DNA from: Aureococcus anophagefferens
Taxonomy: Eukaryota > Sar > Pelagophyceae > Pelagomonadales > Pelagomonadaceae
DNA: 64,000 bases
Reading direction: 5' to 3'
NCBI RefSeq assembly: GCF_000186865.1
Contig: NW_008705567.1
Span: forward strand, 1,119,757 to 1,183,756
Positions 22,452 to 26,024 of the stretch are shown in pieces (the first letter of the stretch is position 1; every line of letters starts with the position of its first letter). Position numbers and translations under genes: made by a program. The notes under the pieces are model-generated. The model did not search any database. It was not told the origin of the DNA and saw nothing but the letters and a program-made list of their open reading frames with translations.

Positions 22452-25400
22452 TTAGTAGGCGACGTTCCGCTGCTGCTGGTGGCCCCGGCGCCTCCGCCCC
22501 GCGGGCTCCGGCTGCCGCCGCGCGTTCGGCGGGGGCGCGCGGGCCTCCTCCTTGCGCTCGGCCAGCGCGTTGGCCACGGCCGTCTTCGGGTCCGCGTCCG
22601 CGGGCCCGTGGCAGTTCGCGAAGTCCGCCTCGCCGCCGAGCTTGAGGTCCGCGAGGTCCCGCGCGCAGTCCTTGACGAGGCGCGCGGCCCAGGCCTTGGG
22701 CAGCCGCCGCAGGAAATCCCGGAAGAGCGCGGACCGCCGGTTGCGCTGCGCGGCGTCGAAGTCGCCAAAGAAGTCGCCCGTCGCGCCGTGCTTGCGGCAG
22801 TGGCGCACGTGCTCGTGCGCGTCTTTCCCGCAGTCCTGGAGGCAGTAGGCGCAGAAGCCGCAGCCGCAGCCCGGCCGCGAGCACGTCAAAGCGAAGCAGC
22901 CGTTGAAGTCGACGAAGGCCTGGTCGCAGCGCGGGCAGGCCAGCGTGAAGATCTTCTCGAGGACGTGGCCCCGGAGCTCCGCGGCGCACGCGTCGTCGCC
23001 GCCGCCGCCCGCGGCGTCCCGCAGCGCGCGGACCTCGTCGCGCAGCCGCTCCGCGAACTGCCCCTCGAGCTCCCGCGTCACCTTGGCCTCGGCGAGGTTC
23101 TCCTTCGCCCTTACGTAGCCGGCGAAGGACGCGTCGTCGAGGTTCTCCGCGAGCTTCTTGTCCGAGAAGACGGGCGCTTTGCAGCCGGGGCCGGCGCAGG
23201 CGATGCCCCCCCGCTCCGCGAAGAGCCGCAGGCCGTCGCCGTCGACGGCCGCGGCGACCAACCCCTGGAGGCAGTCGCCGCAGAAGAAGTGCTTCTCGCC
23301 GCCGTCGCACTCGAGGCCCTCGTTCGCGCGGTAGTCGTCGTAACAGCACAAGCACGTGACCTTGCGGCGGCCGTCGTCGCCCGCGCCGTTGCACTCGAGC
23401 GCGAGGCCCTGGAGCCGGCGCCGCGCGGCCGGCGCGGGCGCCCAGGTCCCGTCGGCCGCCGTCGACAGGAGGTGCGCGCAGAGCGTCGCCGTCGCGTCCG
23501 TCAGCGACGGCGGGCAGGTCGGCCGCAGGGCCCGGAGGTACTCGGCCGCGCGCTCGAGGGCCTCGCAGGCCATGTGCGGCGCGTCCGGGAACCCGTCGAC
23601 GATCTCCTGGCCGAACTCGACGAGCGCCGCCGCCTGCTTCTCGCGGAACGCGCGCGCCGCGGCCTTTTTTTCCGGCGCGTCGACGACGGCCGCGTCGACG
23701 GCGCGCCGCGTCATCGGCGACACCATGGTGCCGTCGGGCTTCGCGAGCGCCGCCGCGGACTCGCGCTCGTAGACGAAGCCGTCGCGCGCGCGCACGGGGT
23801 CCACGAGCAGGCAGAGCGTCACGGGGCAGCACAGGTCCGGGTCCTCGTCGACGAGCGCGTCGAGCCGGCCCTGCCACGCGTCGCCGACGACCTTGCCGAC
23901 GGCGCCCGCGCGCGCCTGCTCGGCCCCGTCGCCCGCGGGGATCGCGACGGCGCCGCGCACGGCCGCGGCGACCTGGGCCTCGTCGCACTTGAGCATCATC
24001 GCGATCATGGCGTCGTCGACGCCCTTCTCCGCGAGCGTCCTCGCGGCCTCGGCGTCCTTCTCCGGCAGCGGCGCCGCCGGCGGCGCGCCCGCGGTCTTAC
24101 CGGAGAAGGGGCACGTCCCGCCGGCGGCGGCCTTCCCCCCGAAGGGGCAGCCGCCGGCGCCCGCCGGCGGCGCGGGCGGCACGGCCGCCGGGCCGTCGTC
24201 GAAGTGCCCCGACGCCGGGCCGACGTCGCCCGTCTCGCCGACGGCGAGGCCGACGCACAGGTCCGCCTTGGCCTTCTCGAGCGTCCGCAGCGCGAGCGCG
24301 TGGTGGTGGTGCGTCGGGAAGACCTTGGCCGCCGCCTTGCAGGCCAGGCCCTTGAACGCGTCCCACTCGTCCGCGCGGATGCCGAGCTTCGCGTCGTCGA
24401 AGCCCCGCACCGTCGCGACCTCCGGCCCGTCGGCCGCGTGGCAGAGCAGCTCCGTGACGACGTAGGTGAGCCCCGGCGCGTGGCGCTTCGCGAGCGGGTC
24501 GGCGTCGTCGCCGAGCGGCGGCGTCCGCAGGCCCGAGCCGTCCGCGAGGACCGACGCGACGAGCAGCTGGACGAACTGCGCGACGGGGTAGACGCCCCCG
24601 AGGCGGTGGAACGCCGTGCCCACCGTCGACGGGTGGGGCCGCGGCGGGCCCGGCTCGGGCCAGGGCTCCTCGCCCGGCGCCGTCGTGCACTGGCGCTCGA
24701 AGCTCGCGACGATGGCGTGGAGCTCGCGCGCGGCGCCGCGCGGCACGCCCGCGGCCCTCATGACGTCGTCGGCGACGGCGGCGAAGCGCGCCCACTCCGC
24801 GGGCGTGATGTGCAGGTGCTTGTGGGCGACGTCCATGGGCCGCCCCGTGTACCGCTGGGGGCCGCCCGTCAGGTAGCCCATGAGCTGCGTGACGAGGAAC
24901 TTGAAGCCCGGCGCGCACACGGACTCGTGCCACCGCGCGACCTTCGCGTTCGCGTTGAGCGCGCCGTCCGGACATCCACGCGTCCATCATGCGGTCCACG
25001 AGGCGCGCTAATCCAAAAACGCCGCCGCCGCGGCCGTAGAGCGTCCGCGGGTCGCCGTAGACGGCCCGGCGCGCGGCGACGGCGTCGCGGCGCGCGGCCG
25101 CGGACGACGCCAGCAGCGCCGCGCGCTGCTCCGCGAACTCCTCCGCGGAGACCATGGCGCCCGCGGCCGCGTCGTCCTTGGACTTGACGGTCGCCGCGCG
25201 GCCCGCGACGCCCTTGAAGTCGCCGGCGCCGTTGGACTCGTCGACGACGGCGCCGCGGCAGCCCCTGTCGAAGGCCGCGAGCAGCGCGCGCCGCGCGCCG
25301 TCGTTTTCCACGTGGTCCGCGGCCGCGCGCGCGGTCAGGTTCACGGCGCGCCAGGCGCCCTTGGGCACGCCGAGCTGCGCCTCCGGCGCGCCGCGCGCCG

Positions 25401-26024
25401 TGACGACCTCGGGCCCGCCGCAGGCCTTGCAGACGGCCTCCGTGAGGAGGTACTTGAGCGCGGCGGGCGTCCGCTTCGCGTCCGTCGCCACTTTGAACCG
25501 CGCGTCCGCGAGGAGCGCGTCGACGAGGCGGTCCGCGAAGAGCGCGATCGGATAGACGCCGCCGCAGAGGCCGTAGGCCGCGTGCCCCCCCGGCCGCCAG
25601 GGGCCCGGGTCCCGCCGCGGCCGCTCGCCGGGGTAGACGACGCACTCGTCCTCCATGCTGATCATGAGCGCGTTCAGGTCGTCCTGGTCCTCCGCGGGGA
25701 GGCCGAACTCGCCGCAGACCTCGTTGAAGAGGCCCATGAAGACGCCCCACTCCGCCTCGCTGATGTTCAGGTGCTTGTGCGCCTCGTCCATGGGCCGGCC
25801 GGTGTAGCGCTGGGGCCCGCCCGTGAGGTTGCAGACGATCTGGACGACGAGGAACTTGAAGCCGGGCCGCTGCGCGCTCTCGTGCCAGCGCGTGACCATG
25901 GCGTTGGCGTTGAGCGTGTCGTCATCCAGCGGTCCATGCACCGGTCCACGAAGGCCGAGACGCCGAAGACGCCGCCGCAGCGCTGGTAGAGCGTGCCGGG
26001 CTCGCCGTAGATGTTCGAGGCCAT
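22452..26024 (-). CDS. Multi-globin / U-box / RBR-like ubiquitin-ligase fusion
   Basis: About 1,190 residues if two small frame changes are discounted. Order: truncated globin 1 (5-110; TLYQRCGGVF, GFKFLVVQIV, GRPMDEAHKHLNI with the F8 His), a globin-like unit without that His (120-230), globin 2 (325-430; GRPMDVAHKHLHI), a second His-less unit (445-560), two CPF motifs (GGCPFGGK, GTCPFSGK, about 623-640), a U-box (CCPVTLCLLVDPVRARDGFV, about 730-780), a RING1-like finger (CLCCYDDY...FFCGDCL, about 890) and a RING2-like finger (LACPRCDQAFVDFNGCFALTC, about 1030-1075). Globins bind heme and sense or detoxify O2/NO; U-box and RBR domains transfer ubiquitin. The frame shifts by one base near 25925 and back near 24970, both at the same globin position. 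Start ATG 26024. Confidence 0.8.

Follow-up and report, generated by a model that had tools for sequence, protein, structure and literature searches.

Truncated-globin units and a U-box in a family of marine-protist proteins: a candidate heme- or gas-responsive ubiquitin ligase at an Aureococcus anophagefferens locus

The stretch of DNA analysed here (the window) comprises 64,000 nucleotides of contig NW_008705567.1 of the pelagophyte Aureococcus anophagefferens and bears, on its minus strand, a gene span running from an ATG at 26024, with CCACC just before it, to a stop at 22452. A sequence-only reading of the window had pointed out two truncated-globin F8 motifs (AHKHLNI and AHKHLHI), two globin-like units lacking the histidine interleaved with them, Cys-Pro-Phe (CPF), a U-box and RING1- and RING2-like fingers, and this order was borne out. 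Along the minus strand globin unit 1 is followed by degenerate unit 2, globin unit 3, degenerate unit 4, the CPF linker and a helical segment; next comes the U-box, which another helical segment separates from a RING1-like finger, and a long helix then leads to a RING2-like finger and the tail. We propose, with a probability of about 0.5, that the locus represents a so far undescribed family of U-box ligases from marine protists, in which a sensor array of four group 1 truncated hemoglobin (trHb1) units gates the output. The order of the parts, their conservation, and the predicted folds of one relative and of the window's ligase part were computed in this analysis. The parts are as follows (P numbers are those of individual proteins).

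25923..26024, minus strand: start of globin unit 1 (MASNIYGEPGTLYQRCGGVFGV...DRWM), with which the relatives P0006 (82%) and P0020 (80%) align
25627..25923, minus strand: remainder of globin unit 1 (trHb1) with the F8 His motif AHKHLNI, in another frame than the preceding part; supported by Bac_globin
25258..25617, minus strand: globin-like unit 2, without the proximal His
24970..25056, minus strand: start of globin unit 3 (GDPRTLYGRGGGVFGLARLVDRMMDAWM)
24672..24968, minus strand: remainder of globin unit 3 (trHb1) with the F8 His motif AHKHLHI; frame change directly before it
24252..24671, minus strand: globin-like unit 4, without the proximal His
24069..24251, minus strand: linker with two Cys-Pro-Phe motifs, the Cys codons at about 24149 and 24113
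23850..24068, minus strand: predicted helical segment ahead of the U-box, of which the model covers the last part only
23637..23849, minus strand: U-box domain (Pfam profile, predicted fold, conserved positions)
23382..23636, minus strand: helical segment between the U-box and the RING1-like finger (segment mapping, predicted model)
23130..23381, minus strand: RING1-like zinc finger
22962..23129, minus strand: long helical linker, at the place of the IBR in a true RBR (segment mapping, predicted model)
22785..22961, minus strand: RING2-like zinc finger retaining the Cys column of the parkin and ARIH1 RING2 (finger-alignment comparison)
22452..22784, minus strand: C-terminal tail and stop

In the Pfam scan of the window protein two of the domains named by the sequence-only reading were recovered, the U-box at 22.3 bits (cut-off 21.4) and globin unit 1 at 22.9 bits against Bac_globin (cut-off 21), whereas unit 3 fell below the cut-off at 18.4 bits and neither units 2 and 4 nor an IBR gave a match. 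Units 2 and 4 are called globin-like because they resemble units 1 and 3 as well as the relatives.

A protein search was made over 5.8 billion proteins, of which the 7988 candidates sharing most words were scored, and 79 relatives were found at E<=0.001. Architectures were called by mapping twelve segments of the window onto the relatives and then classing the globin units: 48 of the 79, P0003 included, have all four units in order, and the other 31 are partial or otherwise ordered, many of them visibly fragments. It is clear from these numbers that the modules occur together beyond chance. An open reading frame (ORF) arising by chance in a GC-rich genome was ruled out, since distant relatives have the same order and motifs. 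The nearest protein, P0003 (SO694_00080170, also of A. anophagefferens), is 70% identical over 47% of the query by BLASTP; it shares long identical stretches with the window, the differences elsewhere being due to frame and gene-model gaps. Other members come from the dinoflagellate Pelagodinium bei (P0011), from the haptophyte Emiliania huxleyi (P0056), from MMETSP transcripts (P0020, P0075) and from many metagenome and metatranscriptome proteins. Globins 1-4 and the U-box lie within one ORF in P0011 and P0020, and in P0024, which is laid out alike, the third unit was classed as unit 1. At the level of the family the fusion of globins to a ubiquitin ligase is well supported, because the order is conserved, transcript-derived single ORFs hold both globins and U-box, the F8 His is strict, the CPF is nearly so, and trHb and U-box folds are predicted.

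The relatives vary in what accompanies this core. Both tail fingers are present in nine of them (P0004-P0008, P0010, P0021, P0051 and P0053), are partial in P0003 and are reduced to the first in P0081, and P0082 has the U-box and tail with no Pfam globin match. P0046 and P0050 start with ubiquitin, matched in two stretches each at 126 and 100 bits, and have VWA at their end; further domains are VWA in P0056, a kinase with EF-hands in P0052 and PARP in P0081. A weak UBA match (16-20 bits, cut-off 22.4) separates the globins from the U-box in five of the eight relatives scanned and was not seen in the Pfam scan of the window protein. The RING1/RING2-like pair is also found in the kinase-domain proteins P0086, P0088-P0090 and P0092-P0094, one of them with a HECT domain, and to judge from this distribution it would be a reusable module. 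No relative was found among the 8 pattern matches in viral contigs. Bacterial and archaeal genomes gave 21 loci with one globin motif per ORF, the nearest bacterial-genome loci being mainly from Planctomycetota and Streptomyces and also from Nannocystis. A different globin fusion was noticed in P0162, in which PF00610, which we take to be DEP, is followed by apparently three trHb units with GGPxxYSG or YTG and a following His.

The globin units were compared column by column, dropping rows that do not cover a unit, including the window rows and placing the third unit of P0024 among the 40 rows of unit 1. The proximal F8 His is kept in all rows of unit 1 (40/40) and of unit 3 (63/63), and is absent from all 52 rows of unit 2, where 50 have Glu, and from all 74 rows of unit 4, where 71 have Asp or Glu. 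GGPxxYTG is nearly unchanged in units 1 and 3. In every row of both units (40/40 and 63/63) the residue aligned with Tyr34 of the S. benthica trHb is Trp; this column is presumably CD1, in which case both units have an aromatic residue there. Since units 1 and 3 of the window are each split by a frame change, the trHb fold comparison was made on the relative P0011, whose predicted unit 3 matches the 2-over-2 trHb1 fold with a root-mean-square deviation of 1.4-1.5 over 116 residues. Heme binding by the His-bearing units is likely. A tree was built of 61 unit sequences, those of 14 relatives and of the window together with three single globins; in it unit 2 falls on one side of a branch (89/74), as does unit 4 (97/88); unit 3 forms one set together with the P0024 row (100/98), and unit 1 is not a single group. 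This grouping by unit suggests that the array is older than the split of the sampled members, or that it moved whole between lineages.

The linker between the globins and the U-box contains CPF in 73 of 74 rows and at least two copies in 42; shuffled linkers would be expected to give 0.40 rows. The sole exception, P0040, has CPM. In a 49-row alignment the second CPF of P0011 is kept as Cys in 49, Pro in 48 and Phe in 44 rows, and the Cys of the first in 32. Residues 644-683 of P0011, which hold both motifs, have a predicted local distance difference test score (pLDDT) below 50, i.e. a flexible segment is predicted. No CP followed the globin motif in any of the 21 single-motif bacterial loci, which makes the CPF look like a feature of the fusion. 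Passages of PMC10377097 and PMC12856317 treat CP motifs as a recognised element of heme regulation; the systems described there are alike in having the Cys-Pro in a flexible segment, and the family differs in that it is nearly always joined by Phe. The CPF may itself bind heme, although we consider this less likely than not.

In the 79 rows given (the window piece and 78 relatives, P0003 left out) the U-box could be aligned in 74. Ser-Pro is kept in 74/74, the Arg of SPxTR in 67/74 and Val/Ile in 74/74, positions which we take to be E2 contacts. The U-box profile scored over its cut-off in seven of the eight relatives scanned, with P0052 below it. Structure models were made of P0011 and of the window's ligase part: the predicted U-box of P0011 matches that of CHIP, the family U-box resembling CHIP and E4B/Ufd2 by fold, and in Foldseek the model of the window's ligase part had no match at E<=0.001, with parkin first at 3.8e-3. 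E3 activity is likely.

The tail had been described as RBR-like, and this was right as to the kind of the two fingers and wrong as to what joins them. The first finger has the features of an RBR RING1. The profile of the whole 23-row C-terminal alignment found no match in the PDB, for which reason the two fingers were aligned separately, with 12 and 8 of the 23 rows; the RING2-like alignment then matched parkin (chain 9c5e, E 2.9e-5) and ARIH1 (1wd2, E 0.0012) with the Cys column kept. The family is in these respects like the RBR ligases parkin, ARIH1 and RNF216, but the residue two after the RING2 Cys is Ala where RBR ligases have His, and the 56 residues between the fingers of the window protein are helical with a single Cys, unlike an IBR. 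With no IBR between the fingers, the tail is not a true RBR. In four relatives Pfam IBR_2 reached 22.6-26.1 bits, short of its cut-off of 27.

The claim that the window copy is one gene did not hold, as the reading frame changes at ~25923 and ~24969. Compared with P0006 and P0020, the window follows one frame to about 25923, a second to about 24970, and the first again from about 24968; no single ORF therefore joins the first globin unit to the ligase. Both changes come directly after Trp-Met, so that the homologous position is affected in units 1 and 3. In P0003, from a second Aureococcus assembly, the 28 residues over the second change (25015-24932) are identical to the window in the frame that is wrong for a globin; the second change is therefore not a private error of this assembly. 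The P0003 model starts at the first Met past the first change. In searches of the same genome 6 of 12 matches to TCP1 and 4 of 18 to HSP70 were nearly full length in one open frame, the others being partial, and the assembly is thus not frame-broken throughout; one TCP1 place, on C24, is divided by introns or breaks into four pieces, two of which contain stops. No intron that would remove just the few bases without loss of conserved helix was seen at either change, by eye and with no splice predictor run, and local DNA structure at the breaks was not clearly above shuffles (z 1.62 and -0.51). The changes may reflect unusual splicing, recoding, inactivation or a shared systematic sequencing error. 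The proposed fusion thus stands, as far as the sequences tell, for the family, whose intact copies are those of relatives, and not for the twice-interrupted Aureococcus copy. In this species the globins and the ligase may be separate genes, an outcome that the sequence-only reading had named as refuting its proposal.

In the mechanism that we propose, units 1 and 3 would most likely hold heme b via the invariant F8 His, and units 2 and 4, from which it has been lost, would most likely be partners or spacers that carry no heme. To these the flexible linker that leads to the U-box would add one or more CPF of the heme-regulatory CP type. The trigger would most likely be the heme loading of units 1 and 3, or their ligation by O2 or nitric oxide (NO) and their redox state; it is possible that the CPF cysteines take up labile ferric heme and so provide a labile-heme or redox contact. 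The trigger would then alter the position or the oligomeric state of the U-box, which in some members, that of the window included, is joined by the RING1/RING2-like tail, and thereby change how a target, or the ligase itself, is ubiquitylated. We put gating by heme or gas at a little under even odds.

Alternatively, the Aureococcus locus could be a decaying or split gene, in which one ORF encodes part of the globins and a second the ligase together with globin 4 and part of globin 3, irrespective of the rest of the family. The two frame changes would be expected from this, P0003 shares the wrong-frame translation at the second and starts after the first, and the TCP1 and HSP70 matches show that indels are not everywhere, the fragmented TCP1 place notwithstanding. 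Random decay would not favour the same homologous point in two repeat units, however, and the 844 codons downstream are still open and conserved; further, splicing, recoding or sequencing error of the kinds named above may account for the breaks. We therefore consider a decaying gene somewhat unlikely.

The function of the array could also be other than sensing. The globins may store or scavenge heme or NO while a CHIP-like U-box ubiquitylates clients or itself for turnover, giving a ligase for heme-protein quality control or heme buffering without gating by the ligand state of the globins. The predicted likeness of the U-box to CHIP and E4B/Ufd2 is consistent with such a role, and the weak UBA of five relatives would fit handling of substrates or chains; yet the alternation of units with and without His and the near-constant CPF linker look built for a sensor rather than a store, and no TPR or chaperone-binding domain was among the matches of the Pfam scans, so that this explanation appears unlikely. 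It is quite improbable that the array is a protein-interaction scaffold which recruits substrates to the U-box, with heme absent or only structural: the persistence of units 2 and 4 without the proximal His does mean that the fold has a non-heme role at least there, but none of the 103 rows for units 1 and 3 lacks the His, and in these units GGPxxYTG hardly changes and the CD1-like Trp is invariant. Several observations weigh against a heme- or gas-gated ligase. The Pfam scores of the window's U-box and globin are marginal, with unit 3 below the cut-off, and two frame changes, one of them common to P0003, mean that Aureococcus may not make the full protein. The CP dipeptide alone is no proof of heme binding, and P0215, a single-globin metagenome relative, has Cys-Pro-Ala near its end and not CPF. 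In P0059 the globin pairs are swapped (3-4, U-box, then 1-2, followed by a C-terminal VWA). Trp at the usual CD1 aromatic column could make the ligand chemistry unusual, and the predicted template modelling scores of both structure models (0.53-0.54) mean that the arrangement of the domains is not predicted.

The genome searched comprises 49.05 Mb in 86 contigs. No second copy was found in it with the 844-amino-acid piece: of the six matches, two lie in this gene, and the other four are weak and cover the U-box part; a Pfam globin search scored no candidate, this locus included, and is therefore uninformative on further copies. Upstream of the gene lies a protein kinase gene (26251-28115, minus strand), broken by a run of N at 27065-27484. 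The adjacent ORF at 20540-21802 (minus strand) has a FWIVDNSGSM stretch that looks VWA-like by eye. It was considered as a split-off partner, VWA being fused in some relatives, and was rejected, as it has no Pfam match and is unlike any of the 79 family rows given.

Several known systems resemble the family in part. In the account given in sections of PMC12022348, the HRZ, BRUTUS and BTSL hemerythrin RING E3 ligases of plants and algae have the same sensor-ligase design: helical domains that bind iron and react with O2 stand in tandem at the N-terminal side, and the ligase domain is C-terminal. The same sections describe one of the tandem hemerythrin-like domains of BTSL2 as having no metal (PMC12022348). 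By analogy these ligases would be the nearest working counterpart of the family, although they combine diiron hemerythrin folds with a RING whereas the family combines globins with a U-box; no hemerythrin was matched in the Pfam scans of the window protein and of the relatives scanned. FBXL5 likewise places an O2- and iron-binding domain within a ubiquitin ligase, but this is a hemerythrin domain in an SCF subunit, with no globin and no U-box. The group 1 truncated hemoglobins of S. benthica and P. caudatum and HbN of M. tuberculosis are like units 1 and 3 in fold, F8 His and GGPxxYTG, and differ in being single domains with no ligase and no CPF tail (0/21 loci) and in the Trp that the family has at the CD1-like column. 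Globin-coupled sensors also join an N-terminal-side globin to a variable output domain, but theirs are 3/3 globins (portions of PMC1457004); the matches of the family were to the Bac_globin profile and to trHb structures rather than to 3-over-3 sensor globins. The portions of that 2006 survey at hand give globin-coupled sensors as absent from eukaryotes, name as chimeric globins the flavohemoglobins along with these sensors, and do not mention 'ubiquitin' (PMC1457004), and the corresponding portions of a paper on dinoflagellate hemoglobins mention neither 'U-box' nor 'ubiquitin' (PMC3631397). No description of a globin-U-box family was found in the literature, which here means Creative Commons-licensed PMC papers and is thus weak evidence of absence.

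Sensor domains in ubiquitin ligases are already known for iron and oxygen by way of hemerythrin, and no report of a globin in that role was found in the papers searched. We tentatively suggest, at slightly less than an even chance, a class of globin-coupled ubiquitin ligases in which two heme globins, two heme-free pseudoglobins and a CPF linker would switch a U-box, in some members with an RBR-derived RING1-RING2 tail; protein degradation in dinoflagellates, haptophytes and pelagophytes would then be set directly by O2, NO or labile heme. If true, the family would be a heme-based, independently evolved counterpart of the hemerythrin ligases; its units with and without His alternate strictly and its CPF linker hardly varies, which makes it a natural test case for the roles of pseudoglobins and CP motifs; and if the gating holds, it would provide marine phytoplankton with a direct switch from gas or heme to proteolysis.
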